From: Apostichopus japonicus
Lineage: Eukaryota > Echinodermata > Holothuroidea > Aspidochirotida > Stichopodidae
Direction of reading: 5' to 3'
Assembly (NCBI RefSeq): GCF_037975245.1
Contig: NC_092569.1
Location: forward strand, 6,380,501-6,444,500
DNA: 64,000 bases
The position numbers and the translations under genes were made by a program. The notes beneath the pieces were generated by a model. The model was not told where the DNA came from. It worked only from the letters and a program-made list of their open reading frames with translations, and did not search any database. Below, one piece after another: positions 4,423 to 64,000 of the stretch (position 1 is the stretch's first letter; each line of letters begins with the position of its first letter).

Positions 4423-4428
4423 ATTAAA
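4423..4428 (+). other. Probable polyadenylation signal (ATTAAA), gene A
   Basis: ATTAAA lies 106 bases after the stop codon, and the same hexamer is conserved at the same place in gene B (22548-22553). It is the commonest variant of the AATAAA signal. No cleavage site can be placed from sequence alone. Confidence 0.45.
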
Positions 4429-4618
4429 GTACTGGAAAACAATGCCAATTTACCCAATGAAGACGCTTATGCATATCAAGATATTTCAACGCAAAAAATC
4501 GTAGCAATGGACATGTTTCTTGTTCTATTATCCAAGTTTGCATGTTTATAAGAAATTTAACGGTGAATATTCCGAAACATAAATTGAATTATAACCTTGA
4601 AAAAAATCCTAATATTAA

Positions 4619-5154: not shown

Positions 5155-5162
5155 AATATTAA

Positions 5163-6984: not shown

Positions 6985-7965
6985 ATATTAGGTTCACAGT
7001 AAGAACTGAGGGTATGTGTAATCCTTACAAGTGCGTCAAACTGGATTTGTTGGGATTTCATACATCCTAAGTACCTACTGTAATTCTGATAGCACCTGCT
7101 ACCGATTTATAGCACGATCTAGTTTTTACTGTGGTAAAATTTAAAGATTTACAGTCGTTTCTTTGTTCTCTGTTTGTACCGGTGAAAATTCATGAAATCA
7201 AGACGTACAGCGATACTGTGAATTAACATACCAATTTCTGACGTATACTACGGATACGTACTCAGCATAGTTCACACTATACACTGTACTAAGGTATGTC
7301 TTTACTGTTAAATCTGAAACACATATGTCAACAATTCCATCAAGAAAGTTAAGGCTTGAACAAACAGTTAACTATTGTGGCACAATCTTCACTTTGACAT
7401 TTGATCAGACGAAAAAGGGGTGGACCAGTACCAATAACAATACTTCTTTTGGGGAATGACCTTTACTGTTCCTTGAAACGTGAATATCTGAAATACATTT
7501 GCTGCTGTATTTCCGATCAGTAACGGTAGGCCTAGGCTTATCGGTTACACGTTTCGTAAGTGTTAATGTCGACATTGTTCTGCCATTGCCTATAGGCAAC
7601 CATTTTGTCTTGGTTCGATTCCTTGGATCGCTGCTCTCAGGAAATGTTAACATTGCCTCTTTTTCTGATTCGTAGCCTCCAATAACTTCTGATATGATAA
7701 CTACACTCGATACACACAGAGAACACAGTAACTACTATAAATCTTTAAGTTTTGTTCCCCAGTGAAAACTGGACCGTTTATAAAACGGTAGCATGGGCTA
7801 TTAAAATTACAGTATGTACTGAGGATATGAATAATCCCAACAAATCCAGTTTGATGCATTTTTTGGATTACACATATCGACAGTTCTTACTATAATTGTA
7901 ATATCACATGCAACCGATGTATCATATTTGTCAGCACGAACCAGTTTTTAATATGGTACAAAACT
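6985..7965. repeat. Large inverted repeat, arms about 190-240 bp
   Basis: About 6985-7180 reads as the reverse complement of about 7710-7915 with scattered differences. The clearest block is 22 bp perfect: 7036-7057 against 7833-7854. The spacer (about 7180-7710) shows no recognisable gene. A further direct-orientation similarity (about 7095-7165 with about 7908-7975) suggests that the unit is itself a decayed foldback transposon. No terminal duplication was identified. Confidence 0.6.
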
Positions 7966-21400: not shown

Positions 21401-22451
21401 TGACCGAAGACTTGAATAAGTGAATGATTTGCAGTGATAATGCAAATATAAGAACATGATGATGATGAGTAGATGGGTTGATTTATGTTATCCTTCCTTT
21501 CATAAATCACTAAAACAAACACCATGTCTCTGTTCCGATTTCAGACCTACCCATATACACTACAGCTAAATACGGACATATCCAAACACGTCCAAGCAAC
21601 AATCTTGCACCATGAAAACAATACTTTCTTCGAATATACATTTGCACACAATCTACATTAGCATCATCGAACTGTATCAGAAGGGCAAAACCAAGTTTTA
21701 GGCCACAGTGTTTGGTTTTGTGTAATTTAGTCATACCAATGATGCCGTATCAGTCATCATGACTTTAGTACGTTTTATCCCATTGAAAAACAATACGAAA
21801 TTTTTGATACACCTACTGACACGTCAATTCTTTAAATGGAGTATTAATTACTTCATGTTCTTTTTATGTATTTTTGTTTAATTTTTTGTACTTAATTATT
21901 AAATGTTACAGCATGTGTGATTTCAGCAGTACCGATTATGATAAGAAATATGATAATTATTATTACTAAACGATAAAAAACATTATGGAAAGAAACTAAA
22001 AAATAATACAAGATAACATTTAATTTGCAATTATTGGAATAATGAATTATAAACGATAGTTAATTAATGAAACTCTTACTAAATAAAACTCTTAACGCCG
22101 CTTTTTATTTCAGCAATTTCAGAAGGTCTTATCTTCAGTAACATTACATGGAACGCCAACTGTTCTTTTCTTTGTCCTCATTTTACAGACTCTCGCAGCA
22201 ACCCTGATGGTTATGCTCTTCGTTATCATCTCAACTACAGGTTCACTACCAAAGACAATGACAACGATGGGTATAGCTCCAACTGCGCTGTTCCTTATCA
22301 CGGTGCCTGGTGGTACCATAGTTGTACCTACTCAAACCTCAATGGAGACTACCATGCCAGCCGAGGTGCTGAAAGCAGTCCTCATTGGGACTACTTACCC
22401 GGCAACTACTTCAACATCAAATACACAGAAATGAAGCTTCGTCCCTTTTAG
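12336..22451 (+). CDS. FReD gene B: secreted TIL-EGF-fibrinogen protein (possibly damaged)
   Basis: Eight exons fit by splice sites and phase: 12336-12413, 17302-17347, 17689-17858, 18268-18532, 19274-19485, 19875-20183, 20984-21248 and 22189-22451. The order is signal peptide, short acidic linker, two-thirds of a fibrinogen domain, TIL, TILa/EGF, complete fibrinogen domain. Read through all exons, a TAG at 18457-18459 ends the protein after 161 residues. Exons three and four together are 435 nt and in phase 1-1, so a transcript that omits both is open throughout and would encode 390 residues, giving the ordinary SP-TIL-EGF-FReD layout. Whether this happens is unknown. The gene shares its 3' half with gene A by segmental duplication. 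Confidence 0.65.
12414..17301. other. Long AT-rich first intron of gene B, no feature
   Basis: The sequence is AT-rich with many stops in all frames. Random open frames (for example a 122-codon one at 15379-15747) show no domain and lie in low-complexity AT-rich DNA. A short inverted repeat of TTAACTTTAATTGTTAA type lies around 16039-16085. No exon or transposon is recognised. Confidence 0.5.
17302..17347 (+). CDS. Gene B exon 2: short acidic linker
   Basis: A 46-nt exon after TTTGACAG, ending at GTAAGT, phase 0 to 1. It encodes [15 protein letters not shown] plus one base, plausibly the mature N-terminus after signal cleavage. It has no domain. Confidence 0.55.
17689..17858 (+). CDS. Gene B exon 3: start of first fibrinogen domain (A1)
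   Basis: The acceptor CGTACTAG at 17688 gives a phase-1 start that fits the preceding exon; the exon ends in phase 0 at GTAGGT. It encodes a short Tyr/Gln-rich lead, then [38 protein letters not shown], the usual opening of a fibrinogen domain with its first disulfide pair. An extra cysteine pair, QC and GC, is present relative to the second domain. Confidence 0.75.
18268..18532 (+). CDS. Gene B exon 4: middle of first fibrinogen domain, premature stop
   Basis: A 265-nt phase 0-1 exon, homologous to 121-385. Motifs [17 protein letters not shown] and [15 protein letters not shown] are intact. At 18457-18459 the codon is TAG where gene A has TAC (Tyr of YDNFRI), a single base change. The rest of the exon stays in frame. 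No C-terminal fibrinogen exon follows before TIL. Confidence 0.75.
19274..19485 (+). CDS. Gene B exon 5: TIL domain
   Basis: A 212-nt exon, phase 1 to 0, nearly identical to 1128-1339. The few coding changes include the Gly-Tyr-Phe-Met variant in [11 protein letters not shown] and CGCYASEG in place of CGCYESEG. All TIL cysteines are kept. Confidence 0.85.
19875..20183 (+). CDS. Gene B exon 6: TILa + EGF-like + fibrinogen start
   Basis: A 309-nt phase 0-0 exon. The protein is essentially that of 1730-2038: [58 protein letters not shown]. Strong coding conservation after duplication argues that this part is or was recently functional. Confidence 0.85.
20984..21248 (+). CDS. Gene B exon 7: middle of second fibrinogen domain
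   Basis: A 265-nt exon, phase 0 to 1, with the same purine-rich acceptor AACAAAG and the GTTTGT donor as gene A. It encodes [50 protein letters not shown]. Confidence 0.82.
22189..22451 (+). CDS. Gene B last exon: C-terminal fibrinogen subdomain
   Basis: A 263-nt exon from TTTTACAG to TAG at 22449-22451. It encodes [17 protein letters not shown], then the complete calcium loop [25 protein letters not shown], and the end [13 protein letters not shown]. The acidic residues of the KDNDND run fit the calcium site known in ficolins and tachylectin-5. The Trp-Trp near the second disulfide lies by the ligand pocket in those proteins. Confidence 0.85.
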
Positions 22452-22547
22452 CTGGGAATACGAGGGATGTGTAGACAAAAATGCGAATTTTATTTGACTG
22501 AAAATACGGATAGAGAAGTCACGTGACTGATAATGAAAACAAGTCGC

Positions 22548-22553
22548 ATTAAA
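22548..22553 (+). other. Probable polyadenylation signal (ATTAAA), gene B
   Basis: This hexamer lies 97 bases after the stop and is conserved with gene A (4423-4428). Confidence 0.45.
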
Positions 22554-22744
22554 GTGCTGGAAAACAATGCCAATTTTCTCCAATGATGACGCTTATGCAT
22601 ATCAAAATATTTCAACGCAAAAAATCGTAGCAATGGACATGTTTCTTGTTCTATTATCCAAGTTTGCATGCTTATAAGAAATTGAACGGTGAATATTCCG
22701 AAACATAAATTGAATTATAAACTTGAAAAAAATCCTAATATTAA

Positions 22745-23153
22745 CAGTGGCGTAGCTAAGGGGGGTGGGGGGTCAAGGAAGGGCACGTTCCCGGGCGCCG
22801 GGTTTAGCAGGGCGCTGAAATGGGAGAATGGGAGTTTTAAAAAAAACACTTTTTAAAAAAGAAATACGAAATTGATGTTTGTCGTCAGGCATGAATATTT
22901 TCCAGTTACTAATAAGAATCTGAACTGAATGTAGCTGCTTTTATTAGCAAATTTATAGATTGTGATTTCTTTTCAGACCACTTCGACCGTTTTTCTTTGT
23001 TCTACATTCTGTTCTGTCTTCTGCAATGACTACATGTCACGGAAATTTCGGGTATTTCAATACACAGTTTCAAGGCAGTAGATTTCGAAAGGTGGAAATG
23101 TCATAGGCGTCAATTTTCTACTCTTGCACCCAAAACCTCTAGCTACGCCACTG
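22745..23153. mobile_element. hAT-like MITE, second copy with internal deletion
   Basis: The CAGTGGCGTAGC / GCTACGCCACTG ends and the AATATTAA target duplication (22737-22744, 23154-23161) match the element at 4619-5154, at the homologous site. It is 409 bp instead of 536; the missing part is the G-rich right interior. Confidence 0.8.
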
Positions 23154-23161
23154 AATATTAA

Positions 23162-26100
23162 CCATGTCATTTATATCCATTTTTAAGGAAGCTGGATGAT
23201 GGTTCTAGCACCCACTTAACCCGTTTCGCCGCCTAACTCCTCATAAACCGACTTAATTACTCAAGAACTTGATTTAAATATATGTTTTTCGAAACATCGT
23301 GTGACAAGTTTATAGATGAAATAGTAATGCAGCAGCTGTAATAGTACAAATTGGTGGGTGATAAAATTATAGTGACAGTGGGTTAAATACTGACAGTAGA
23401 ATTGTTACTCTCTTTGTGTCATCTTGGAAAGCTTAAATCCTTGGTTTCCAGAAAGTATGGAATCGTAATGTGTCGTCACAATGTTAAAATATGTTAAGTT
23501 AATATACTGTAGCAGTTTTTAATACAACGATTCTTGGTTCAGTTGACATACTGTACAGTTGCAATGATTTTTGACAAATTATTTTAATCTAATAAATGAG
23601 GAGTTCAACATTGTGCTGCAAAATGAGTATTTATCGAATGTCATCAATTTATTAGTCATTTTATTAAAAATGTAGCAAAATGATCAATTGATCAGTTCAA
23701 GTTAATAAATCGTTTCATTTCAAAATTTGGCAACAAAATAAAAAATTAAGTTTGCATCAGCTTTGTCAGATTGTTTTTTTTTTAAATATCAGTTAAAGCA
23801 AGAATAGGAGTTTCTGTCAGCTTCAAATGTTAGAAAAAGAAGTATACACAACGATGCCGGTATAAAACGGGAAAATAGCCTGTTTTCTCCCCATAAGGAC
23901 AGTTTTTGTACGAGGCAAAACACAAATTCTATTTCTTTTAACAAATTTACATCAAATAACCGTCCGAATCTCACACAACTAATACGAGAAAGAACCGATT
24001 CTCTCTGAACATTACATTGAACCTGCTGATAACGTTAACATGGATTTTTGTGACATGTGTCCTGCGTGTGCGTCGTGCCGTGATGTGCTTATGTGACCCA
24101 CATGCAGATCTGGTTATTTAATGGCCAAAGATCCGGTAAATCCGTCTCCGAGTAATATTAAGTAAGGAAAAATATGTTTTAACTTCATATTTATTCGCAC
24201 CTCTTAAAACACTAATATACGTGATAGATACGAAGGAATGAGAGGAAGTAAAGTAGGGATGAGGAGTGGGAGAGAGACAGAAACGGAGAGGGAGGGAAGG
24301 GATGGGAAGGTTGACGCACCCAAAACGCCGTTCCACAACGCGTCAACAACAAGAATAATAACTCTGTCTAGAGCTTGTAACTTGCGAAATGATAAACATT
24401 AATTTTCTCAATTACATGTAATTATGTATCCCAGTAAGCGTCGTGTTCCAATTCCGCATCGACAATTTCAAAAGATAATTAATTCATGCAATGTGTAAGG
24501 GAAGGTAATGATGACGTCATCAAGGGTTTGGGCAAGAGGTTTCCTCCAGCAGAAACGTTACCATTGTTTATGCCAGGATACACTTTAATGTTATAAAGTA
24601 TTCCTCATTACGTATTGCTCTTCAAAGGGTTCCTTGATGGTGACCAATAGCAACGCCAGAAATAGTTTTGATAGCTTCCATCCAAGGGAAAACGGTGCAC
24701 CTGTGCAAAGAGGAAGAACCATGAGCAAGATGTTTTAGCTAAACACATCTTTTGTAGTTTTTATTATTCGTTATCCCTTTAAAATGGGAAAATGCACAAG
24801 TCATGTGCATTAGCAATAATTTAACATTCATGATGTATGCATAGGGTGGCAGATGATGTCTTATACCAGCCCTAGCTATGTGATATAAAGTTTCTTCATT
24901 ATCAATAGTATTTGATATGGTCACCCCAACACTGTGCTCCAACATGGCCGGTTAGTTTTTAATTCTAGAAGAGGTGAGCAGTAGAACACTTTAACATTTA
25001 ACGATTCACATACAACTGTGCTTGCGGATAAATTTTCAACAATTGAGGGTTGAGCACGGGGAGGAAATACCGAAGAAACCAGAAGAATGTTGTTTTGTAT
25101 CTTTTTACGGTGGCCCAGAAAATATGAAATAAAAGTAGACATTTCATATCGAAATTTCGTCTATTTTATCTAAGTATTTTTGGTTTCGATGATAATCGTT
25201 ACCTTTGTAGTGATGCAGGCGGATGATTGTGTGTGTGGGTATACATGTGCGTTTGTTTTTCTATCTGACCGAGGACAAAAGAATTCCAGGTCCTCGATTG
25301 TGATTTCTAAAGAATCACCACGTCCTCGGAAGAATTTCTATTGTATGGGGTATTGTTAAGGTTAGGGTACGTGGATTTGAACAATGGAAAATACAATGGG
25401 GTACTCGGTTGGAATGTAAAACCAACATGTATGTGTGCGTGTGTGTGCATGTGTGTGTGTGTTTGTGACGCCTTGCTCATTGTTAACACGATATCTTAAG
25501 AAGAGAAGTTCGGACCGATCTAATGTTTGGTGTGTAGGAGTACCACATTAGGTAAAAGAAGTCTACGGTTGTGGGGGAGGTCAAAGGTAATTCGGTCACC
25601 AGGGGTCAAAGTTTTGAAACGTCACATGATATCTAAAGAAGGGAAGCTTGGAAAAACTGTTCATCTTCAAATGCCCTATTTTGTTTCGTGCTTTCGTTCA
25701 TTTATTACAATATATCAGTTCCTGGGGATCGGCAGGAGAACCATTCAACGCTCACATTGTAATAACTAGCTTTATGTTGGTTTCTTCAACTTTCCAATTA
25801 TTCTTTGTATGTGCAAGTGAAATGCCGGAGGTATACTCACTCAGCCCCTTTGCTAGAAATGTGATGTTATAATCTATCGTATCTCCCACCGACCAGCTTA
25901 TTAGATAACATATGCGTTTGGCATAATCATATTACAAGTGTCTGTTTTTGTGCAACACTCTAGTGTGTATAGCAGGCATACCGATATCGACCTAGGCAAG
26001 GTTGCAATGACGATGGACAATTCATAACTGACATTCATTTGGAGCTGGTTTCCTACACAAACTTGCTTGAAATTCAAATTCAGTGAAAACAAACTGTTCC

Positions 26101-30677: not shown

Positions 30678-32800
30678 GAGGGCCCGATAATAAGCGGAAA
30701 CGGATCACCGACCGAAAAAATATCGGAATTTGTGAACTATTTCTTGCTTCCTATTGTATTAAAACAAAGCACCTATGTGAAAGACACAAATCACATTCTG
30801 AAAATTGTGGAAGCCACCCCGTTACCAAAAGCAGTAGTACTTGCCACACTCGATGTCGTCGCCATGTATACCAATACTCCCCAAGAGGAGGCATTAGATA
30901 TATGTCAAGAAGTCTATGAAAAGGCGGAAAAAAGCGAATATGGAATAAATAAAATATCTTCCATATCCATGCGCAAACTAATTGAACTTATTTTTAACAA
31001 GAAACTGTTTCGAGTTCAATAACCAATTCTATCTACAAAAGATCGGTTGCGCCATGGGTAGCCAAGCCTCTCCGGAAATCTGTGATATCGTCATGCATAG
31101 ACTGGAAAACCAGATTTTACCGACAGATTTTAAAATCTTAAAATGGCTCCGCTATAGAGATGAAATTCTATTGCTTTACGACGGTTCACCTCAGGAACTT
31201 GAACAACTAGTAAACAGGTTGAATGAAATTCACCGCTTCTTAAAGTTTACGGTAGAAATATTACACACCGAGGTAACATACCTAGATTTGAAAATCTTCA
31301 AAGGTCCAAGGTTTGAAATCAATGGGTTATTAGACACCAAAGTCTACACCAAACCCACGGAAACCTTCCAATACCTAGACAGAAACTCTGCACACCCACT
31401 TGCCACTTTTAAAGGCTTCATTAAAGGGGAAGTCTTACGATACGCACGTCTATGTAACAATGAGACTGATTTCTTACAGAAAAAGAATGCGTTCACAGAG
31501 AAACTGTTACGCCGTAACTATAAGAAAGAGGAAATTGCCTCAGCCACGAAAGGCATAAAATTTGAAAACCGTGGGCAATACCTCACTACCAAACCTAAAC
31601 AAAAGGAACCACAAATGGTGTTCAAGCTTACCTATACACCCCATATCAAAACCACGCATTTGAAAAATGTACTTTTGAAACATTGGCACTTAATCTCGCA
31701 ACACGCGGACAGGGGCGTAGCGAAGGTTTTTGTTGTTGGGGGGGGGGGGGTGGAGGATTTGATTTGCCGACGGATCTGGAAGTGGTGACTGAAATGGGGG
31801 AGGGGTCTAAGGGGAGGGGGTGTCCCCCTCCCTTTTGAAAATTTTTAGTTTTGAAACGTCCTTAGATGCAATCTGGTGCATATTTTAAGTCAAATTTGGC
31901 ACTGTAGAATTTCCATTTCGATATTATTTTTATGGCAGTCGGCAGAAGAAGAATTAATTGGGACCAATTATCGAACCGTGTTTTCTCTTTCACCGATCGT
32001 TGAAATAGTGAAACTTCGTGATGAAAATGTTCAGAAAACTTTCCGGTAATGAGAAATAACAACATTCATTGATATACAAGCGAGAAACGTTAAAAATTGT
32101 GTACAATTCGTGAGCCGTGTCCTTAAGTTTTCCACGGAGAACGAATGACATCTGCGATGACGTCATTCTGAACAGAGGATAATAACAACACGTTGTCACA
32201 CGATAGCACGACTCATGGGCTGCGGCCTATACGGAAGCCTTTAATTCCATTTCTTTCACTGAGTTGCCGGCGATTCTGGCACTCGTCTAGCTGAGCCTGG
32301 CTACAGTAGCTATACTGACGGCCGTGACATTATCAGTTATTTGCCGAGAGGTTTTTAACTTGCAGGCGTCGGGTGATTGGATTGGTGAATGAGTTTATCA
32401 GATGAAGAACTGGAAAATCGAAATAACCGATAAAGAAGCTCCCGTTCTCCTTTTCTCTATTCAGCTTTCCTTCTTTCTTCCCCTTCCGCTCTCTTCACCT
32501 TTTTTCCTTTTGCCGACAGACCCAAAATTTGCCGACAGCGACCAAAATATTGGGGGGCGGGGTGTGACACCCCCCACACCCTCCCCCGCTCGCTACGCCC
32601 CTGCACGCGGAATTATCCAAACTGTTTCCAAAAGAACCGATTCTAGCCTACAAAAGGGCCCAAAATCTCAAAGATTTACTTGTTAACTCAAGGTTTCATA
32701 CTAACGAAGAATCAGCTGACTCTCAAGGTTCACACGAAGCTCTTTTAGATGCTCTTATAGCTGCACTATGAGTCCATAAAAACTCGTGCACAGAAAATAG
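30678..32800 (+). pseudogene. Penelope-like reverse transcriptase, broken
   Basis: Frame one (from about 30678) reads GPIISGNGSPTEKISEFVNY and TLDVVAMYTNTPQEEAL. A one-base shift near 31010 moves to a second frame with KIGCAMGSQASPEIC, WLRYRDEILLLYDG, TYLDLKIF, VYTKPTETFQYLD and an ending found in Penelope-like enzymes. The coding sequence is then cut at 31709 by a hAT-like element and resumes after 32604 with LFPKEPILAYKRAQNLKD. The catalytic box reads YRDE rather than the usual DD pair, and the N-terminus is missing, so it is dead. No intact GIY-YIG nuclease is visible after it. Confidence 0.75.
31710..32603. mobile_element. hAT-like element inserted in the Penelope coding region
   Basis: The ends CAGGGGCGTAGCGA and its complement TCGCTACGCCCCTG are flanked by an exact 8-bp duplication CACGCGGA (31702-31709, 32604-32611). 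It is 894 bp with G/C-rich runs near both ends and no transposase. Removing it and one duplication rejoins the interrupted reverse-transcriptase frame, which confirms the boundaries. Confidence 0.85.
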
Positions 32801-45260: not shown

Positions 45261-45421
45261 ACGTTTTTTCTCTGCACAATGAAAGTTAACACATTGTTTA
45301 CAATATATTTAAATATATATATATATGTATATATATATATAAATATATATATATATAAATATATATTATATTTGAATATATTGTAAACAATGTGGTAACT
45401 TTCATTGTGTAGAGAAAAACG
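45261..45421. repeat. Long inverted repeat with AT-repeat centre
   Basis: The arms CACAATGAAAGTTAACACAT and its near complement at about 45388-45412 are extended by CAATATATT on each side of a TA-rich core. Arms are about 60-70 bases with a few mismatches. This could be a foldback MITE or a strong hairpin. No gene. Confidence 0.75.
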
Positions 45422-49378: not shown

Positions 49379-49448
49379 ATGAAGAGAAAGATGTTTTTTC
49401 AACTTTTCTTTTTGGAAGTGATCGTCATCGGTACGGTGCAAGCCGGAA
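49379..49448 (+). CDS. Gene E exon 1: signal peptide
   Basis: It encodes MKRKMFFQLFFLEVIVIGTV then QAG, a good secretory signal with likely cleavage after VQA. A strong donor GTAAGT is in phase 1. The Kozak context AAAAATGA and the shared upstream sequence with gene D support this start. Confidence 0.7.
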
Positions 49449-52400
49449 GTAAGTATTTCTCTTTCATAATAACCAAAAATAATCCAGTTCCACAAAAACG
49501 GAGTAGAGTACGTTATGATTTTTGTTCTATTTTAAATGTAAATAGGATAAATAGGGTAAACAGGATACTGTATCTGTCTTATTGAATTTAAGAAAAAATA
49601 CTACAGATTAAACCCTTTTGTAACCTTCTGTTCGCATCGCTGTATGGAAATTAAATTTTCTTTGGCAGCCTTCTTGCAGCTAACAAGATCATTTATATAT
49701 CTCTATTTAGTTCCTTGCATACCCCTCTACACCCAGTTATGTTTCTATGCTATATCGGGATGCAATCATAACATGATTCTGTCAGTGAGCCTATCTGCAT
49801 TTTACACACTTTTTCACTACTTCCTCAATTGGTTACAATAGATAGTCCTATAGTAACATTATATGGAATAGTATTCCATATTATTGGTAGTTTAGGTTCA
49901 AAGAAATCTGTACTCGGATGGAACTTTACTTAAGGAAAGGCTGTATGGGATAATAGTGTTTATGCTAAGTATATAGGCTTCGAACAGGGTTATAAGAGAA
50001 CACTAACAACCTAACGTGTAATCTAGATCATAATAAAGAAATATAATCAAATGGTGGTTGAGTTTAAATAACAACAATTGTACACCAAAATATTTCTTTC
50101 ATCGTCATCGTCCCTTTTAACAACATGTTTTACTATGGATAATCTACATAACGGCTTCTTACTGAGAAGGTAGTCCACGTTTGCTTATACAGTTATTCGA
50201 GCAAACCAGTCCGCGAGTTCAGGACTGAGAGCGATAATGCATCTTTCAATACTTCCCTCATTAGGCTTCGATGCATGTACCCTATATTTTGTTTATACTT
50301 ATTTAAGTTCCTAAAATATGTCATTTCTATGCTATCTGAAATTCAATTTCTTAATCAAAATTCCGCATTAGTATCTGTTCACGTAAAGGAGGCTTGCTAT
50401 AAAAGATCAAATTTTAGTTCACTTGATTATAGGCTACTAAAAGAGATTTTCCCTAAGAGTAGGCCTACTCCACATGAATTACGTGTAATCCAGATTATAA
50501 TAGAAGAATGGTGGTTGATTTCAAGAGTTTATATAACAACAATTTATTACCAAGACATTTCTTTCATCGTCATCATCACGTTTTAGAATAGAGTGTACAA
50601 GACGCACTAACATCATCTTACTCAGAAGGTGTTGACCGTTAAAGTAATTCGAGCAATGAATCAATAGGGCTCGAATTAAGAATTGAGAGGAGCAATGATT
50701 TCTTTATGGCAAATTAGAAATTGCCTTGGCTATCCATTGAAATGGCTAGGCACCATGACAATTCTTTAGCTTTCAAAAAGGACAAACACAATTTTCAAAG
50801 TTTGAAACGTCATAAAGGATTTTCTATTTCAACGTGCATAATATATTGAGTCCTATAATTTAGTTTTGACCCTTGGCTTGATGTTGAAATTGAATGATCG
50901 AGATTAGTCTGAGGGCTCATAATACATAACTTGTTGAAATGGCCACGACATTTGTTGCCGTAGGTAACTGGCAAATTTATAAGGAATATGGATACCTAGC
51001 CAATTTGCCACAGACTCAGTACATTTGATGTGTGTAATAAGCTCATTCAAAATCTCTTGACATTTTTAAAAAAGCTCTTTTCGATTCCAAGATATACACA
51101 TTTGACGCTTTGATAAATCTGAGAAACTCATTATATATATATATGCAAACTATGGCATGGAGTGTTACGCTCATCAATATTTCTTATTTTAGCCTTTAAT
51201 AAGTTATCCCCTAATTAAAAGCCCAAAAATATTATTCCACATATATTATTCCTTCGTATTATATATATAGCTATATATATATATTTTATATTAATATTTA
51301 AGCTGCGTCCATTTTATTTTTCATATCCATATTTTAAGGGTTTTGTCATTTTGTTCTCATCGTAAAGCGCTATTGAACATGTTTAAGCATGAAAAGAGCG
51401 CAATATAAATATGGTAAATAATAATAACAAAAAACAATAATAATAATAATATATCATTTGAATTATGTGACGTTCTTCTTTTCAAAGAATACAATAAAAT
51501 ATTTCAAAAAATCGCCCTTATTCAGTGTCCTTGAAAAGGAGGTTGTGATAACAAAGGCAAAATATAACAGAAAAATAGGCAGTCACTCCCTTTACATCCT
51601 CAATGTGCATAAGTAGCTAATGTTTATTCATAAATAAAACTAGAATTAAGAAAAGATTTGTAAATTGGTCAAACCTTGATGGATTTTGATGGAAATTGCA
51701 GCTATTTTCATGGTTTCTAAAGACTATTAAAGTGATTAAAACAATGTTGTTCATAGGTGTTCGTAGACATTTAAAGGCATTGCAGACTCGCCCCAAACCG
51801 CGTGCGGCCATCTTAAAAAGTTAGCTTTCTGTTGCTGGCAAGTGACGTTTTGTTCGTGTCGCTACAACATGCAGACAGTATGAAACGTGATACCTTGTTA
51901 TGTTTAGCTGGACCTGAGATGTCCATCGCTGTATCGTTTATACACTGTGCTGTGGGTATTGACCGCAGCTGTATGTACTGACTGTACACTAGTGTCTAAT
52001 ACTCTAATTACCGACGGTAGTAGGCTGTGTGTGTATTTTCTGGGATTGATGATGGTGTCTAACACTTCTGTTACACCTCATTCAAAACTAGGTCAGGTTA
52101 CCGGCATTAGACGTTTCTTTTGCGTGAGTCTTCACACCCTTTAAAGACGGTTAGCGCGCCGATGTTCCGCTGGTGACGTCAGTTAACTCCAGTCCTGCCG
52201 TACCCTTCTGTGTCATTGAATAATGATCGAACATAAACTATAAAAAATAGGATAAAACCTCAAAGGTTAACATTACCAAAATTAGTTTATCGTTTTCAAA
52301 TCTTGTTTTTGCGCTTTTTTATTCTTATTTTCGATTCGCAGGATTGTGTGATTTTGCTTCGAAGTTTCCATGTAAAGGAGATCATTGTTTACCTTGTTTG

Positions 52401-55400
52401 GGAGACAAAAGTAAGTCAAAAACTGATATATTTAGTTTAGCAATTTCAAATGCAAATAAAAAAATCAAATTAATGATTTTTTTTCCAGCGAACTGACTGT
52501 TTTATTTGGCATTGTTGATTGTTCATGGTCGGAAAGTTTCGTATTCCTCCTTAAATTTTCAACAAGAACAGAAACAAAGGGAAACAAATAGAAATACAAT
52601 CATTTCATTGTTAAAGCAGAAACACGAGAGAAACAAACGGGAAAAAATCATCCATTGTTAAAGAAGAAAACAAATTGAAACAAATAGAAAAAGAAAAAAC
52701 AATCATTTCATTGTTGAAGAGACGAAATTAATTATCAAATTGGATTTTTTCCTGCATTTTTCAATATTTCAGCTAAGTAAACAATCCATGGTCCATTAAT
52801 TTTAGTCGTACTTGAAAATAAAACATTTGAAATTATGTTGAGGTCTAAAAGGGGGTTAAGGTTTACACACTATATTCATCTGGATCCACGCCTGACGTCA
52901 CTGTGTTTCATTAATTTATTTATTTTTGTTTTTTCACAAAATTCACAACTTTCAACGAAATTATCAACATGGACATGACAAAGTTTATTAGTAAATGACA
53001 GCTATCACTGTGTTTGTTATTTCATGACAAGCTGGACGATTGTTAACAATGTTCGCATTTGTTGTCAATCTTATATCAGGTAAAGTAATCTAGTCGAATC
53101 CACCTTTCCGTTTATAATGATATTCCGACCATTGAATCAACACTCAGAAAGACGGACAACAATGTTTGGTTAAAGACGAAAGAAAGTTTACTCTGTAGAA
53201 TTATGTTAGATCCATATTTGCTAAAAAGTTCATATTCCATAGTCTCATACGGCGTTTATATCATAACAAAATACTCTCGTAGTCGTCACGGTAGTGTGAG
53301 CTACCCAATGAAGAGGGCTAAATTGAAATACCGCCAGGTTCAATCTAAAGGTTTCCAATTTTCCTATCTCAGGTTTAACTGATGTATCAGTTGAACTGAT
53401 TTTACATTAACATCGTTCTTCTTTTTTCTTTCTTTTTGTTTGTCTTACTTGAATATATAGTTAAGACAACCGAAGATACAACGGAGATAAGTACTAGACT
53501 CACTAGCGAAAAGCAAGGAACGCAAACCAGTAAGTCCGATTTGCATTTCAAATGTTACCATATATTTCGGAACATATCGCTCTCATAAACGTCACGGTAG
53601 TGTGAGCTACCCAATGAAAAAGGCTAAGTTCAATCAATATACCGTCAGTTCCAAACTAAAGGTTTTCTTGTTTTCCACCTCAGGTTTAACTGATGTATGA
53701 GTACAAAAAAATGTTTTCATCAACATCATTTCTGTTCTTCTTTTTTACTTGAATGTAGTTAAGGCAACAGAAGAAACAACGGAACTAAGTACTGGATCCA
53801 CGACTGAACTGCAAAGCACGCAACCCAGTAAGTCCGATATGCATATCAAATGTTACCATATATTTCGGAACAAAATGCTTTCATAGTCGTCACTGTAGTG
53901 TGAGCTACCGTACCCATTGAATAGGGCTTAATACCGCCAGGTCCAATCTAAAGGTTTCCATGTTTTCCATCTCAGGTTTACCTGATGAATCAGTACAAAA
54001 AATGTTTTCATCAACATCATTTCTTTTCTTCATTTGTCTTACTTGAATGTAGTTAAGACAACCAAAGAAGCAACGGAACTAAGTACTAGACCCACTACCG
54101 AACTGAAAAGCACGGAGTCCAGTAAGTCCGATATGCATATCAAATGTTACCATATATTTCGGAACAAAATGCTTTCATAGTCGTCACTGTAGTGTGAGCT
54201 ACCCAATGAATAGGGCTTAATACTGCCAGGTCCAATCTAAAGGTTTCCATGTTTTCCATCTCAGGTTTAACTGATGAATCAGTACAAAAAATATTTTCAT
54301 CAACATCATTTCTTTTCTTCATTTGTCTTACTTGAATGTAGTTAAGACAACCAAAGAAGCAACGGAACTAAGTACTAGACCCACTACCGAACTGAAAAGC
54401 ACGGAGTCCAGTAAGTCCGATATGCATATCAAATGTTACCATATATTTCGGAACAAAATGCTCTCATAGTCGTCACTGTAGTGTGAGCTACCGTACCCAA
54501 TGAATAGGGCTTAATACCGCCAGGTCCAATCTAAAGGTTTCCATGTTTTCCATCTCAGGTTTAACTGATGAATCAGTACAAAAAATGTTTTCATCAACAT
54601 CATTTCTTTTCTTCTTTTTTACTTGAATGTAGTTAAGGCAACCGAAGAAACAACGGAACTAAGTACTGGATCCACGACTGAACTGCAAAGCACGCAACCC
54701 AGTAAGTCCGATATGCATATCAAATGTTACCATATATTTCGGAACAAAATGCTTTCATAGTCGTCACTGTAGTGTGAGCTACCGTACCCATTGAATAGGG
54801 CTTAATACCGCCAGGTCCAATCTAAAGGTTTCCATGTTTTCCATCTCAGGTTTACCTGATGAATCAGTACAAAAAATGTTTTCATCAACATCATTTCTTT
54901 TCTTCATTTGTCTTACTTGAATGTAGTTAAGACAACCAAAGAAGCAACGGAACTAACTACTAGACCCACTACCGAACTGAAAAGCACGGAGTCCAGTAAG
55001 TCCGATATGCATATCAAATGTTACCATATATTTCGGAACAAAATGCTTTCATAGTCGTCACTGTAGTGTGAGCTACCCAATGAGTAGGGCTTAATACTGC
55101 CAGGTCCAATCTAAAGGTTTCCATGTTTTCCATCTCAGGTTTAACTGATGAATCAGTACAAAAAATGTTTTCATCAACATCATTTCTTTTCTTCATTTGT
55201 CTTACTTGAATGTAGTTAAGACAACCAAAGAAGCAACGGAACTAAGTACTAGACCCACTACCGAACTGAAAAGCACGGAGTCCAGTAAGTCCGATATGCA
55301 TATCAAATGTTACCATATATTTCGGAACAAAATGCTCTCATAGTCGTCACTGTAGTGTGAGCTACCGTACCCAATGAATAGGGCTTAATACCGCCAGGTC

Positions 55401-58400
55401 CAATCTAAAGGTTTCCATGTTTTCCATCTCAGGTTTAACTGATGAATCAGTACAAAAAATGTTTTCATCAACATCATTTCTTTTCTTCATTTGTCTTACT
55501 TGAATGTAGTTAAGACAACCAAAGAGGCAACGGAACTAAGGACTAGACCCACTACCGAACTGCAAAGCACGGAGTCCAGTAAGTCCGATATGCATATCAA
55601 ATGTTACCATATATTTCGGAACAAAATGCTCTCATAGTCGTCACTGTAGTGTGAGCTACCGTACCCAATGAATAGGGCTTAATACCGCCAGGTCCAATCT
55701 AAAGGTTTCCATGTTTTCCATCTCAGGTTTAACTGATGAATCAGTACAAAAAAATGTTTTCATCAACATCATTTCTTTTCTTCATTTGTCTTACTTGAAT
55801 GTAGTTAAGACATCCAAAGAAGCAACGGAACTAAGTACTAGACCCACTACCGAACTGCAAAGCACGGAGTCCAGTAAGTCCGATATGCATATCAAATGTT
55901 ACCATATATTTCGGAACAAAATGCTCTCATAGTCGTCACTGTAGTGTGAGCTACCGTACCCAATGAATAGGGCTTAATACCGCCAGGTCCAATCTAAAGG
56001 TTTCCATGTTTTCCATCTCAGGTTTAACTGATGAATCAGTACAAAAAATGTTTCATCAACATCATTTCTTTTCTTCATTTGTCTTACTTGAATGTAGTTA
56101 AGACAACCAAAGAAGCAACGGAACTAAGTACTAGACCCACTACCGAACTGAAAAGCACGGAGTCCAGTAAGTCCGATATGCATATCAAATGTTACCATAT
56201 ATTTCGGAACAAAATGCTTTCATAGTCGTCACTGTAGTGTGAGCTACCGTACCCATTGAATAGGGCTTAATACCGCCAGGTCCAATCTAAAGGTTTCCAT
56301 GTTTTCCATCTCAGGTTTACCTGATGAATCAGTACAAAAAATGGTTTCATCAACATCATTTCTTTTCTTCATTTGTCTTACTTGAATGTAGTTAAGACAA
56401 CCAAAGAAGCAACGGAACTAAGTACTAGACCCACTACCGAACTGAAAAGCACGGAGTCCAGTAAGTCCGATATGCATATCAAATGTTACCATATATTTCG
56501 GAACAAAATGCTTTCATTGTCGTCACTGTAGTGTGAGCTACCGTACCCAATGAATAGGGCTTAATACCGCCAGGTCCAATCTAAAGGTTTCCATGTTTTC
56601 CATCTCAGGTTTACCTGATGAATCAGTACAAAAAATGTTTTCATCAACATCATTTCTTTTCTTCATTTGTCTTACTTGAATGTAGTTAAGACAACCAAAG
56701 AAGCAACGGAACTAAGTACTAGACCCACTACCGAACTGAAAAGCACGGAGTCCAGTAAGTCCGATATGCATATCAAATGTTACCATATATTTCGGAACAA
56801 AATGCTCTCATAGTCGTCACTGTAGTGTGAGCTACCGTACCCAATGAATAGGGCTTAATACCGCCAGGTCCAATCTAAAGGTTTCCATGTTTTCCATCTC
56901 AGGTTTAACTGATGAATCAGTACAAAAAATGTTTTCATCAACATCATTTCTTTTCTTCATTTGTCTTACTTGAATGTAGTTAAGACAACCAAAGAGGCAA
57001 CGGAACTAAGGACTAGACCCACTACCGAACTGCAAAGCACGGAGTCCAGTAAGTCCGATATGCATATCAAATGTTACCATATATTTCGGAACAAAATGCT
57101 CTCATAGTCGTCACTGTAGTGTGAGCTACCGTACCCAATGAATAGGGCTTAATACCGCCAGGTCCAATCTAAAGGTTTCCATGTTTTCCATCTCAGGTTT
57201 AACTGATGAATCAGTACAAAAAAATGTTTTCATCAACATCATTTCTTTTCTTCATTTGTCTTACTTGAATGTAGTTAAGACATCCAAAGAAGCAACGGAA
57301 CTAAGTACTAGACCCACTACCGAACTGCAAAGCACGGAGTCCAGTAAGTCCGATATGCATATCAAATGTTACCATATATTTCGGAACAAAATGCTCTCAT
57401 AGTCGTCACTGTAGTGTGAGCTACCGTACCCAATGAATAGGGCTTAATACCGCCAGGTCCAATCTAAAGGTTTCCATGTTTTCCATCTCAGGTTTAACTG
57501 ATGAATCAGTACAAAAAATGTTTCATCAACATCATTTCTTTTCTTCATTTGTCTTACTTGAATGTAGTTAAGACAACCAAAGAAGCAACGGAACTAAGTA
57601 CTAGACCCACTACCGAACTGAAAAGCACGGAGTCCAGTAAGTCCGATATGCATATCAAATGTTACCATATATTTCGGAACAAAATGCTTTCATAGTCGTC
57701 ACTGTAGTGTGAGCTACCGTACCCATTGAATAGGGCTTAATACCGCCAGGTCCAATCTAAAGGTTTCCATGTTTTCCATCTCAGGTTTACCTGATGAATC
57801 AGTACAAAAAATGGTTTCATCAACATCATTTCTTTTCTTCATTTGTCTTACTTGAATGTAGTTAAGACAACCAAAGAAGCAACGGAACTAAGTACTAGAC
57901 CCACTACCGAACTGAAAAGCACGGAGTCCAGTAAGTCCGATATGCATATCAAATGTTACCATATATTTCGGAACAAAATGCTTTCATTGTCGTCACTGTA
58001 GTGTGAGCTACCGTACCCAATGAATAGGGCTTAATACCGCCAGGTCCAATCTAAAGGTTTCCATGTTTTCCATCTCAGGTTTACCTGATGAATCAGTACA
58101 AAAAATGTTTTCATCAACATCATTTCTTTTCTTCATTTGTCTTACTTGAATGTAGTTAAGACAACCAAAGAAGCAACGGAACTAAGTACTAGACCCACTA
58201 CCGAACTGAAAAGCACGGAGTCCAGTAAGTCCGATATGCATATCAAATGTTACCATATATTTCGGAACAAAATGCTCTCATAGTCGTCACTGTAGTGTGA
58301 GCTACCGTACCCAATGAATAGGGCTTAATACCGCCAGGTCCAATCTAAAGGTTTCCATGTTTTCCATCTCAGGTTTAACTGATGAATCAGTACAAAAAAT

Positions 58401-61400
58401 GTTTTCATCAACATCATTTCTTTTCTTCATTTGTCTTACTTGAATGTAGTTAAGACAACCAAAGAAGCAACGGAACTAAGTACTAGACCCACTACCGAAC
58501 TGCAAAGCACGGAGTCCAGTAAGTCCGATATGCATATCAAATGTTACCATATATTTCGGAACAAAATGCTTTCATAGTCGTCACGGTAGTGTGAGCTACC
58601 CAATGAATGGGGCTTAATACCGCCAGGTCCAATCTAAAGGTTTCCATGTTTTCCATCTCAGGTTTAACTGATGAATCAGTACAAAAAATGTTTTCATCAA
58701 CATCATTTCTTTTCTTCATTTGTCTTACTTGAATGTAGTTAAGACAACCAAAGAAGCAACGGAACTAAGTACTAGACCCACTACCGAACTGAAAAGCACG
58801 GAGTCTAGTAAGTCCGATATGCATATCAAATGTTACCATATATTTCGGAACAAAATGCTTTCATTGCCGTCACGGTAGTGTGAGCTACCGTACCCATTGA
58901 ATAGGGCTTAATACCGCCAGGTCCAATCTAAAGGTTTCCATGTTTTCCATCTCAGGTTTAACTGATGAATCAGTACAAAAAATGTTTTCATCAACATCAT
59001 TTCTTTTCTTCATTTGTCTTACTTGAATGTAGTTAAGACAACCAAAGAAGCAACGGAACTAAGTACTAGACCCACTACCGAACTGAAAAGCACGGAGTCC
59101 AGTAAGTCCGATATGCATATCAAATGTTACCATATATTTCGGAACAAAATGCTTTCATTGCCGTCACGGTAGTGTGAGCTACCCAATGAATAGGGCTTAA
59201 TACCGTCAGGTCCAATCTAAAGGTTTCCATGTTTTCCATCTCAGGTTTAACTGATGAATCAGTACAAAAAAATGTTTTCATCAACATCATTTCTTTTCTT
59301 CATTTGTCTTACTTGAATGTAGTTAAGACATCCAAAGAAGCAACGGAACTAAGTACTAGACCCACTACCGAACTGCAAAGCACGGAGTCCAGTAAGTCCG
59401 ATATGCATATCAAATGTTACCATATATTTCGGAACAAAATGCTCTCATAGTCGTCACTGTAGTGTGAGCTACCGTACCCAATGAATAGGGCTTAATACCG
59501 CCAGGTCCAATCTAAAGGTTTCCATGTTTTCCATGTCAGGTTTAACTGATGAATCAGTACAAAAAATGTTTTCATCAACATCATTTCTTTTCTTCATTTG
59601 TCTTACTTGAATGTAGTTAAGACAACCAAAGAAGCAACGGAACTAAGTACTAGACCCACTACCGAACTGAAAAGCACGGAGTCCGGTAAGTCCGATATGC
59701 ATATCAAATGTTACCATATATTTCGGAACAAAATGCTTTCATTGCCGTCACGGTAGTGTGAGCTACCGTACCCATTGAATAGGGCTTAATACCGCCAGGT
59801 CCAATCTAAAGGTTTCCATGTTTTCCATCTCAGGTTTAACTGATGAATCAGTACAAAAAATGTTTTCATCAACATCATTTCTTTTCTTCATTTGTCTTAC
59901 TTGAATGTAGTTAAGACAACCAAAGAAGCAACGGAACTAAGTACTAGACCCACTACCGAACTGAAAAGCACGGAGTCCAGTAAGTCCGATATGCATATCA
60001 AATGTTACCATATATTTCGGAACAAAATGCTTTCATTGCCGTCACGGTAGTGTGAGCTACCCAATGAATAGGGCTTAATACCGCCAGGTCCAATCTAAAG
60101 GTTTCCATGTTTTCCATCTCAGGTTTAACTGATGAATCAGTACAAAAAAATGTTTTCATCAACATCATTTCTTTTCTTCATTTGTCTTACTTGAATGTAG
60201 TTAAGACATCCAAAGAAGCAACGGAACTAAGTACTAGACCCACTACCGAACTGCAAAGCACGGAGTCCAGTAAGTCCGATATGCATATCAAATGTTACCA
60301 TATATTTCGGAACAAAATGCTTTCATAGTCGTCACTGTAGTGTGAGCTACCGTACCCATTGAATAGGGCTTAATACCGCCAGGTCCAATCTAAAGGTTTC
60401 CATGTTTTCCATCTCAGGTTTACCTGATGAATCAGTACAAAAAATGGTTTCATCAACATCATTTCTTTTCTTCATTTGTCTCACTTGAATGTAGTTAAGA
60501 CAACCAAAGAAGCAACGGAACTAAGTACTAGACCCACTACCGAACTGAAAAGCACGGAGTCCAGTAAGTCCGATATGCATATCAAATGTTACCATATATT
60601 TCGGAACAAAATGCTTTCATTGTCGTCACTGTAGTGTGAGCTACCGTACCCATTGAATAGGGCTTAATACCGCCAGGTCCAATCTAAAGGTTTCCATGTT
60701 TTCCATCTCAGGTTTACCTGATGAATCAGTACAAAAAATGGTTTCATCAACATCATTTCTTTTCTTCATTTGTCTCACTTGAATGTAGTTAAGACAACCA
60801 AAGAAGCAACGGAACTAAGTACTAGACCCACTACCGAACTGAAAAGCACGGAGTCCAGTAAGTCCGATATGCATATCAAATGTTACCATATATTTCGGAA
60901 CAAAATGCTTTCATTGTCGTCACTGTAGTGTGAGCTACCGTACCCAATGAATAGGGCTTAATACCGCCAGGTCCAATCTAAAGGTTTCCATGTTTTCCAT
61001 CTCAGGTTTAACTGATGAATCAGTACAAGAAATGTTTTCATCAACATCATTTCTTTTCTTCATTTGTCTTACTTGAATGTAGTTAAGACAACCAAAGAAG
61101 CAACGGAACTAAGTACTAGACCCACTACCGAACTGAAAAGCACGGAGTCCAGTAAGTCCGATATGCATATCAAATGTTACCATATATTTCGGAACAAAAT
61201 GCTTTCATTGCCGTCACGGTAGTGTGAGCTACCCAATGAATAGGGCTTAATACCGCCAGGTCCAATCTAAAGGTTTCCATGTTTTCCATCTCAGGTTTAA
61301 CTGATGAATCAGTACAAAAAAATGTTTTCATCAACATCATTTCTTTTCTTCATTTGTCTTACTTGAATGTAGTTAAGACATCCAAAGAAGCAACGGAACT

Positions 61401-64000
61401 AAGTACTAGACCCACTACCGAACTGCAAAGCACGGAGTCCAGTAAGTCCGATATGCATATCAAATGTTACCATATATTTCGGAACAAAATGCTCTCATAG
61501 TCGTCACTGTAGTGTGAGCTACCGTACCCAATGAATAGGGCTTAATACCGCCAGGTCCAATCTAAAGGTTTCCATGTTTTCCATCTCAGGTTTAACTGAT
61601 GAATCAGTACAAAAAATGTTTCATCAACATCATTTCTTTTCTTCATTTGTCTTACTTGAATGTAGTTAAGACAACCAAAGAAGCAACGGAACTAAGTACT
61701 AGACCCACTACCGAACTGAAAAGCACGGAGTCCAGTAAGTCCGATATGCATATCAAATGTTACCATATATTTCGGAACAAAATGCTTTCATAGTCGTCAC
61801 TGTAGTGTGAGCTACCGTACCCATTGAATAGGGCTTAATACCGCCAGGTCCAATCTAAAGGTTTCCATGTTTTCCATCTCAGGTTTACCTGATGAATCAG
61901 TACAAAAAATGGTTTCATCAACATCATTTCTTTTCTTCATTTGTCTCACTTGAATGTAGTTAAGACAACCAAAGAAGCAACGGAACTAAGTACTAGACCC
62001 ACTACCGAACTGAAAAGCACGGAGTCCAGTAAGTCCGATATGCATATCAAATGTTACCATATATTTCGGAACAAAATGCTTTCATAGTCGTCACTGTAGT
62101 GTGAGCTACCGTACCCATTGAATAGGGCTTAATACCGCCAGGTCCAATCTAAAGGTTTCCATGTTTTCCATCTCAGGTTTACCTGATGAATCAGTACAAA
62201 AAATGGTTTCATCAACATCATTTCTTTTCTTCATTTGTCTCACTTGAATGTAGTTAAGACAACCAAAGAAGCAACGGAACTAAGTACTAGACCCACTACC
62301 GAACTGAAAAGCACGGAGTCCAGTAAGTCCGATATGCATATCAAATGTTACCATATATTTCGGAACAAAATGCTTTCATTGTCGTCACTGTAGTGTGAGC
62401 TACCGTACCCAATGAATAGGGCTTAATACCGCCAGGTCCAATCTAAAGGTTTCCATGTTTTCCATCTCAGGTTTAACTGATGAATCAGTACAAGAAATGT
62501 TTTCATCAACATCATTTCTTTTCTTCATTTGTCTTACTTGAATGTAGTTAAGACAACCAAAGAAGCAACGGAACTAAGTACTAGACCCACTACCGAACTG
62601 CAAAGCACGGAGTCCGGTAAGTCCGATATGCATATCAAATGTTACCATATATTTCGGAACAAAATGCTTTCATTGCCGTCACGGTAGTGTGAGCTACCCA
62701 ATGAATAGGGCTTAATACCGCCAGGTCCAATCTAAAGGTTTCCATGTTTTCCATCTCAGGTTTAACTGATGAATCAGTACAAAAAATGTTTTCATCAACA
62801 TCATTTCTTTTCTTCATTTGTCTTACTTGAATGTAGTTAAGACAACCAAAGAAGCAACGGAACTAAGTACTAGACCCACTACCGAACTGAAAAGCACGGA
62901 GTCCAGTAAGTCCGATATGCATATCAAATGTTACCATATATTTCGGAACAAAATGCTTTCATAGTCGTCACTGTAGTGTGAGCTACCGTACCCATTGAAT
63001 AGGGCTTAATACCGCCAGGTCCAATCTAAAGGTTTCCATGTTTTCCATCTCAGGTTTACCTGATGAATCAGTACAAAAAATGGTTTCATCAACATCATTT
63101 CTTTTCTTCATTTGTCTTACTTGAATGTAGTTAAGACAACCAAAGAAGCAACGGAACTAAGTACTAGACCCACTACCGAACTGAAAAGCACGGAGTCCAG
63201 TAAGTCCGATATGCATATCAAATGTTACCATATATTTCGGAACAAAATGCTTTCATTGTCGTCACTGTAGTGTGAGCTACCGTACCCAATGAATAGGGAT
63301 TAATACCGCCAGGTCCAATCTAAAGGTTTCCATGTTTTCCATCTCAGGTTTAACTGATGAATCAGTACAAAAAATGGTTTCATCAACATCATTTCTTTTC
63401 TTCATTTGTCTTACTTGAATGTAGTTAAGACAACCAAAGAAGCAACGGAACTAGGTACTAGACCCACTACCGAACTGCAAAGCACGGAGTCCAGTAAGTC
63501 CGATATGCATATCAAATGTTACCATATATTTCGGAACAAAATGCTTTCATTGTCGTCACGGTAGTGTGAGCTACCCAATGAATAGGGCTTAATACCGCCA
63601 GGTCCAATCTAAAGGTTTCCATGCTTTCCATCTCAGGTTTAACTGATGAATCAGTACAAAAAATGTTTTCAACAACATCATTTCTTTTCTTCATTTGTCT
63701 TACTTGAATGTAGTTAAGACAACCAAAGAAGCAACGGAACTAAGTACTAGACCCACTACCGAACTGCAAAGCACGGAGTCCAGTAAGTCCGATATGCATA
63801 TCAAATGTTACCATATATGTCGGAACAAAATGCTCTCATAGTCGTCACTGTAGTGTGAGCTACCGTACCCATTGAATAGGGCTTAATACCGCCAGGTCCA
63901 ATCTAAAGGTTTCCATGTTTTCCATCTCAGGTTTAACTGATGAATCAGTACAAAAAATGTTTTCATCAACATCATTTCTTTTCTTCATTTGTCTTACTTG
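49379..64000 (+). CDS. FReD-family gene E: signal, Cys-rich segment, giant Thr-rich exon array (3' end outside window)
   Basis: Exons seen are 49379-49448 (signal peptide), 52342-52410 (Cys-rich), then 36 exons of 69 nt from 53461 to 63782, all phase 1-1. The next repeat unit is cut by the window edge. By comparison with gene D, the exons beyond should encode TIL, TILa/EGF and a fibrinogen domain, but none is in view, so membership of the FReD family rests on exons 1 and 2 and on the linker exon type. If all exons were used, the array would give 828 residues of Ser/Thr-rich stalk in this window alone. Confidence 0.65.
49449..52341. other. Gene E intron 1 with tandem duplication and repeat relics
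   Basis: About 50010-50250 and about 50480-50715 are diverged tandem copies; both carry GTGTAATC, ATGGTGGTTGA, TTTCTTTCATCGTCATC and an ATTCGAGCAA block. Around 51355-51455 a segment ending CGCAATATAAATATGGTAAA then (ATA)n has the style of a LINE or SINE 3' tail. About 51770-52150 is GC-richer and may be an interspersed repeat. No coding exon is recognised. Confidence 0.5.
52342..52410 (+). CDS. Gene E exon 2: short Cys-rich segment
   Basis: A 69-nt phase 1-1 exon (acceptor TTCGCAG, donor GTAAGT). It encodes LCDFASKFPCKGDHCLPCLG then DK, with four cysteines, one residue longer than gene D exon 2 and with the cysteines shifted near the end. No known domain. Confidence 0.7.
52560..52725. repeat. 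Purine-rich minisatellite in gene E intron 2
   Basis: Units of about 55-60 bp built from GAAACAAA, AGAAA and AATCATTTCATTGTTAAAG recur about three times with variation. No coding role seen. Confidence 0.6.
53461..53529 (+). CDS. Array exon 1 (most diverged repeat exon)
   Basis: It starts after ATATATAG and ends at GTAAGT, phase 1-1. It encodes KTTEDTTEISTRLTSEKQG then TQT plus a split codon. It differs from the array consensus at about ten positions. Its intron also lacks the perfect palindrome (GATTTGCATTTC). Confidence 0.75.
53759..53827 (+). CDS. Array exon 2 (variant class, repeated as exon 5)
   Basis: It encodes KATEETTELSTGSTTELQST then QP. The same variant recurs at 54633-54701 with an almost identical exon, showing a three-unit duplication. 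Confidence 0.8.
53759..55509 (+). repeat. Higher-order repeat, two copies of three units
   Basis: Units at 53759, 54053 and 54342 recur as 54633, 54927 and 55216 (shift 874). The marker is the GCACGCAACCC exon variant found only in the first unit of each triplet. Confidence 0.8.
54053..63782 (+). CDS. Array exons 3-36: homogenised Thr-rich repeat exons
   Basis: Each is 69 nt, phase 1-1, with starts at 54053, 54342, 54633, 54927, 55216, 55510, 55805, 56098, 56392, 56686, 56980, 57275, 57568, 57862, 58156, 58450, 58739, 59033, 59323, 59617, 59911, 60201, 60495, 60789, 61083, 61373, 61666, 61960, 62254, 62548, 62837, 63131, 63425 and 63714. The consensus translation is KTTKEATELSTRPTTELK followed by STES, with an Ile at the split codon (Val after exons 59617 and 62548, whose last base is G). 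Seven Thr and three Ser in 23 residues suit mucin-type O-glycosylation. Variants: T to S (exons 55805, 57275, 59323, 60201, 61373), K to Q near the end, S to R (55510, 56980), S to T (54927), S to G (63425). None contains a stop. Confidence 0.85.
55510..58449 (+). repeat. Higher-order repeat, two 1470-bp copies of five units
   Basis: 55510-56979 and 56980-58449 carry the same ordered variants: AAAGAGGCAA with AAGGACTAG, then the GACATCC exon, then the unit with TGTTTCATC (one T lost), then ATGGTTTCATC. Lengths match exactly. This is either a very recent duplication or an assembly duplication. Confidence 0.8.
60495..63424 (+). repeat. Higher-order repeat, second five-unit pattern
   Basis: Units 60495, 60789 and 61083 share rare markers with 61960, 62254 and 62548 (shift 1465): TGTCTCACTTG before two acceptors in a row and ACAAGAAATG before the third. 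Units 61373 and 61666 carry the same marker pair as 55805 and 56098. Confidence 0.7.

Follow-up and report, generated by a model that had tools for sequence, protein, structure and literature searches.

A tandem array of small exons at the end of the window (the whole stretch of 64,000 nt that was analysed, C9:6380501-6444500, in a genome searched over 671.6 Mb and 35 contigs) is probably the stalk-coding part of one gene, hereafter gene A, for a secreted fibrinogen-related lectin. As read from the sequence, the protein would consist, in this order, of a signal peptide, the product of a small Cys exon, 65 repeats, Cys-rich TIL and TILa modules, an EGF-like module and a fibrinogen C-terminal domain, the stalk being made of Ser/Thr/Glu/Lys-rich repeats of 23 residues, with one exon apiece. 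The gene is presumably transcribed and its 65 array exons included; the extended stalk would be O-glycosylated, the head may bind a glycan or an acetyl-ligand, and the length of the stalk may both vary between individuals and matter.

Within the window the exon list holds 36 array units, whose exons start from 53461 to 63714 at a spacing of 289-298 bp, and TRF reports 36.6 copies of period 294 with 96% matches and a score of 19429. Each unit of ~294 bp includes an intron of ~225 nt, and all 36 exons are 69 nt long, lie between AG and GTAAGT and have an open phase-1 frame. Beyond the window end there are 29 further units, up to extended coordinate 72234 (extended coordinates are positions on genome contig C9 minus 6380500), and the full array amounts, in the one assembly from which the number is taken, to 65 units with intact exons in 65/65. 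The most frequent repeat, IKTTKEATELSTRPTTELKSTES, has 10/23 Ser+Thr, and the type of the second, divergent array exon recurs at 54633-54701. An earlier note on this DNA had described 36 contiguous 69-nt exon units in phase 1-1, with intact splice sites and no stop, and an array continuing past the window, both of which were confirmed; its 23-residue repeat with 10/23 Ser+Thr holds for the commonest repeat, and its exon 2 lies where it had been placed and joins the array in frame (Table 1).

Gene A comprises 71 exons with GT/AG introns and a single open frame of 1909 codons, giving a protein of 1909 aa, of which the stalk takes up 1495. Visual inspection indicates a signal peptide and no membrane anchor. 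The fibrinogen head that the earlier note had suspected was found in the same frame beyond position 64000, where a TIL exon, a TILa/EGF/fibrinogen exon and two fibrinogen exons lead to a stop. A Pfam search of a model protein built with 3 of the 65 repeats returned three matches that pass their cut-offs, Fibrinogen_C (PF00147, 1.4e-45), TILa (6.9e-09) and TIL (2e-07), and one that does not, EGF_3 (1.9e-05). PF00147 covers head positions 2-220 of 221, placing the head among the fibrinogen-related domains (FReD). Sequence matches of the head in the PDB include angiopoietin-1, techylectin-5A and ficolins, and the TIL/TILa part matches FCGBP. In addition, the head contains the acidic stretch DEDND, at what we take to be the calcium site of ficolin/techylectin-type FReD lectins. 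The stalk is composed of Thr (29.9%), Ser (13.3%), Glu (17.3%), Lys (11.0%) and Pro (4.3%), and Ser and Thr together make up 43.2% of its 1495 residues, the Ser/Thr-rich composition of a mucin-type domain; the term mucin-like, used in the earlier note, is accordingly carried by the Ser+Thr content, Pro being just 4%.

Table 1. Positions of the features of gene A, of its exon array and of a nearby minisatellite (window coordinates unless marked as extended or by locus).
Feature	Position	Strand	Basis or remark
Gene A exon 1: ATG and hydrophobic, signal-peptide-like MKRKMFFQLFFLEVIVIGTVQAG, ending in phase 1	49379..49448	+	Frame; donor GTAAGT; identical in paralog B
Gene A exon 2: 69 nt, Cys-containing, phase 1-1	52342..52410	+	AG/GTAAGT; in-frame join; identical in paralog B
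Exon-intron array, part in the window (36 units)	53461..64000	+	TRF, exon list, continuation
Array exon 1, divergent edge unit, pairing with unit 1 of paralog B	53461..53529	+	Exon list, unit tree
Array exon 2, second divergent unit, pairing with unit 2 of paralog B	53759..53827	+	
Longest exact repeat within the array: 1851 bp, lag 1470 bp (five units)	55145..58465	+	
Array exon 36, last complete one before the window end	63714..63782	+	Exon list
Gene A TIL exon	extended 72423-72637		In frame after the array
Gene A TILa/EGF/fibrinogen exon	extended 72789-73097		In frame
Gene A fibrinogen exon	extended 73363-73627		In frame
Gene A last fibrinogen exon, with stop	extended 74132-74449		Final two bases past the stop codon
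18-bp minisatellite	L013 5256-6230; L018 3567-4146; L010 ~5825-7000		L010 copy: extended 75825-77000, by similarity

The donor and intron start of the unit occur at 70 places genome-wide (up to 3 mismatches), 65 in gene A, 3 in gene B and 2 in gene C, and the reversed control gave none. Gene B is a tandem paralog with the exon order of gene A, three units (extended 100873-101532, the first of them 26 kb past the stop of gene A) and an intact frame of 481 aa. Genes A and B do not differ in exon 1, exon 2 or the TIL exon, and their fibrinogen exons are 96.4, 94.7 and 88.4% identical; of the flanks, the 4.9 kb preceding the array share 98.2% identity and the 1.7 kb following it 94.2%. Gene C lies on the minus strand of C9 near 23.688 Mb. 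Exon 2 was looked for in this gene and not found, and one of its units is cut at the 5' side, with intron-like sequence running into mid-exon as in a deletion scar; despite the loss of exon 2 and of part of a unit, gene C has an intact 415-aa frame with one usable unit. Near-identical genes differ in unit number, the paralogs having 65, 3 and 2 units (one of these cut), and the earlier proposal that units can be gained or lost without frame damage is borne out by genes B and C, whose frames are intact with 3 and 1 usable units. An 18-bp minisatellite (consensus GTCAGTATATCTGGCCCT) is present ~1.2-1.4 kb past the stops of genes A, B and C, and is possibly a recombination-prone element common to the duplicated blocks.

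Since every junction from exon 1 through exon 2 and the array exons to the TIL exon is in phase 1, the length of the stalk would shift in steps of 23 residues with the frame unbroken, and unequal exchange or deletion between the 294-bp units would lengthen or shorten it. The identical splice sites and the phase 1-1 arrangement throughout also suit a reading that is compatible with a stalk-coding array, although somewhat doubtful, in which one allele would yield many stalk lengths by including or skipping in-frame exons. In its favor, SmPoMuc transcripts with 1 to 100 repeats are described, in the accessible part of the source, for genes with at most ~20 (PMC2576457); in gene A, however, skipped and included units would be indistinguishable in sequence.

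The repeat was also compared with that of a distant paralog, the C5 gene. The stalk exons of the gene A array and of C5 differ at 10/69 sites without any gap, whereas the flanking intron differs at 101/274 sites and has 82 gap columns (exon vs intron, p 2.8e-4, the Fisher tests covering 2 of 4 C5 pairs with gap columns set aside). As the array repeat and the C5 repeat differ in 7/23 residues, what has been kept is not the precise sequence; positions 16 and 21 of the repeat are Ser or Thr in 14/14 stalk exons, and positions 7, 12 and 15 in 12/14, in a hand-picked set of peptides that takes in the array consensus, units 1 and 2 of gene A, unit 3 of gene B, unit 2 of gene C, the 69-nt exon of C5 and eight D-type exons, and leaves out units 1 and 2 of gene B, the other array units, the cut unit of gene C and the 333-nt exon of C5. 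Genes A and C show equal divergence in exon (10/69) and intron (44/299).

Inside the array, diversity over units 6-64 is 2362/118059 (0.0200) in the exon vs 7162/379560 (0.0189) in the intron, and over units 1-64 that of the exon (0.0347) exceeds that of the intron (0.0231), the two ranges being set by the divergent edge units held in units 1-5 and by unit 65, which has no following unit. Ten of the 11 variable exon sites were classified by codon, with seven non-synonymous and three synonymous changes, which is the neutral proportion (51/204 possible changes are synonymous). Since exon and intron vary alike and 7/10 changes are non-synonymous, there is no sign of selection on single repeats, and purifying selection was looked for inside the array and not found. 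The intactness of the 65 exons was also rejected as proof of selection: in a simulation without selection, run at the intron's own variation rate, an exon pool without a disabling variant arises with P ~0.12, and since the units have only recently been copied from one another, intactness alone proves little. The case for coding is carried, as far as sequence goes, by the gene context and the distant-paralog comparison and not by intactness. A coding exon long kept for its Ser/Thr-rich make-up, now in a young array whose single repeats drift freely, would fit both sides of this evidence.

The neutral-looking changes and the equal variation of exon and intron would likewise be expected of a minisatellite that has grown within the gene and is skipped, with an mRNA joining exon 2 (or an edge unit) to the TIL exon and most units being in effect intronic, a skipping that all phases would permit. 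Such skipping is unlikely, given that both splice sites and the frame are kept in each of the 65 units, that the same exon stands in frame in the sister genes, and that the exon is conserved over the intron in the C5 comparison.

For the head, pN is 0.028 and pS 0.088 between genes A and C, and for the TIL exon of the same pair 0.018 and 0.16. A purifying signal is absent between the heads of A and B (pN 0.056, pS 0.051) and not clear between those of B and C (pN 0.063, pS 0.074). In the last fibrinogen exon, pN reaches 0.128 and pS 0.053 over 102 codons for B vs C, and 0.120 and 0.090 for A vs B; these numbers are small and suggest that the binding end of gene B has diversified. The missing purifying signal between heads A and B, together with the neutral variation within the array, would agree with gene A being an unexpressed or decaying duplicate whose array grows unchecked, but this is quite improbable in view of a frame open across 71 exons and of a pN well under pS between heads A and C.

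The array that would code for the stalk bears marks of its own turnover. Besides the longest exact repeat (Table 1), a second one of 1207 bp recurs at a lag of 1753 bp (six units), and exact block repeats of 1.2-1.9 kb of this kind are a trace of recent unequal exchange. They are also spots where an assembler can err, yet a unit number wrong or inflated by the assembly is very improbable, because 46 of 64 units are distinct and the bulk of the array is therefore not a copied artefact. In the unit tree, the first and second units of gene A group with the first (support 1.0) and second of gene B, and unit 65 with the third (0.89), units 3 to 64 except unit 5 grouping with the latter pair. The second unit of gene B is chimeric, its first part being like unit 2 of gene A and the rest like the stretch of units 64-65, with overall 21 substitutions to units 64-65 and 23 to units 2-3. 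The exact repeats in the array and this chimeric unit point to unit gain and loss. Given the chimeric unit and the deletion scar in gene C, shortening is equally possible: gene B may be a shortened array, just as gene A may have grown from 3 to 65 units.

Gene A belongs to a wider family. A Fibrinogen_C profile search of the genome gave at least 169 matches (the best 150 of 2730 candidates scored), and on this evidence the fibrinogen family is large and expanded; the matches listed are mostly on contig C9, scattered over many megabases, which among these matches is a chromosome-scale expansion. A search with the TIL exon gave at least 150 matches (the best 150 of 595 candidates scored), among which those in genes A, B and C were the nearest. 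The neighbouring gene D and its relatives have two 69-nt stalk exons that are more distant. The C5 gene has a single 69-nt stalk exon and, in addition, an exon of 333 nt that contains 24-nt repeats (TELSTGIT); in this longer exon (L022 5931-6263), which parallels the array at the level of a single exon, the tandem repeats number 12.4 copies with 97% matches. A crude screen of ~4.1 kb upstream of four more TIL relatives found a Ser/Thr-rich 69-nt exon in 0/4; all that it returned were pieces of the TIL exon in L025 and, in L026, a candidate of 108 nt. The exon of gene D at 37988 likewise escapes this screen, its Ser/Thr content being below the limit set.

Elsewhere in the window, positions 1-6777 and 18155-24760 form a segmental duplication, 94% identical over ~5 kb and 92% over 1.7 kb. 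Inside it TIL is matched at 1088-1435 and at 19222-19581, and a TILa/EGF/fibrinogen match starts at 19773-20222, which indicates more genes of the same family there. An open frame of 268 aa at 30982-31785 shows a reverse transcriptase match that is weak and stays below the cut-off (PF00078, 1.7e-06), and is likely a retroelement remnant, and an AT-rich sequence at 45265-45419 is near-perfectly self-inverted (92% over 156 alignment columns).

It may tentatively be proposed that the product of gene A is a recognition lectin and that a germline VNTR of spliced exons determines how far it reaches, with a stalk length that would depend on the allele and perhaps on the transcript, and a head that diversifies separately. 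The sister genes offer a natural series of 1 usable, 3 and 65 copies of one exon, in which it can be asked how splicing handles dozens of near-identical exon-intron units and what stalk length does to a secreted lectin. Moreover, within one family the Ser/Thr stalk would have been lengthened in two ways, by multiplying exon plus intron in gene A and by multiplying 24 nt within an exon in C5. The earlier note had considered a repeat unit made of a complete exon with its intron to be rare; this is only partly right, because exon-plus-intron coding VNTRs are an already known kind, with SmPoMuc and LPA KIV-2 as precedents. What is new is that a single very small exon is present 65 times in a fibrinogen lectin gene whose nearest sister genes have three or one intact copies. 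No fibrinogen lectin with a stalk encoded by an exon-intron VNTR was found among the literature titles and abstract beginnings covered, a scope outside which most subscription papers lie. A complete in-frame exon with its intron is present in 65/65 units of gene A.

The 5.6-kb KIV-2 unit of human LPA contains two exons with introns. It is a protein-coding VNTR, as is the array of gene A, present in 1-40 units per allele and making up as much as 70% of the coding sequence, according to the available portions of the sources (PMC11462820, PMC11201333); its unit is large and codes for a folded kringle, whereas in gene A a single exon of 69 nt encodes a low-complexity repeat. In the SmPoMuc genes of Schistosoma mansoni, a 27-bp exon 2 encoding the mucin repeat lies in genomic repeats of ~1 kb, up to ~20 per gene, and transcripts can contain up to 100 repeats, as given in the part of the source available (PMC2576457). 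As in gene A, a small exon with its intron is the tandem unit, the number of units differs from one family member to another and, like the array described here, the units are homogenised; the differences lie in the ~1-kb units, at most ~20 in number and with microsatellites between them, against the 65 copies of 294 bp in gene A, and in the product, a parasite mucin for which that part of the source reports no fibrinogen head, unlike the lectin head of gene A (PMC2576457). Spider silk genes also derive repeated protein parts from exon-intron genomic repeats under concerted evolution, but these are structural fibres and their introns are described there as more homogenised than the exons, whereas gene A would code for a lectin and its exons and introns are equal in this respect (PMC2576457); in the portion seen of a further spider silk paper (PMC5348893) nothing on exon-intron units was found.

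The comparison extends to the fibrinogen proteins of molluscs, and here gene A departs from the FREPs. Molluscan FREPs in the strict sense carry one or more N-terminal Ig domains before the fibrinogen domain. In the gene A model protein (3 of 65 repeats, Pfam) an Ig domain was looked for and not found, the matches being only Fibrinogen_C, TIL, TILa and EGF_3; unlike strict FREPs, gene A combines TIL, TILa and EGF-like modules with a repeat stalk. In Biomphalaria, FREPs form an expanded fibrinogen-domain family held to recognise pathogens, and SmPoMucs are targets of certain snail FREPs, as stated in the available part of the source (PMC12074976). If gene A does code for a recognition lectin of the kind proposed, it would be the host-lectin counterpart of the schistosome exon-VNTR mucins: in the snail system the array sits in the target of the FREP, whereas here the fibrinogen protein itself would bear such an array.
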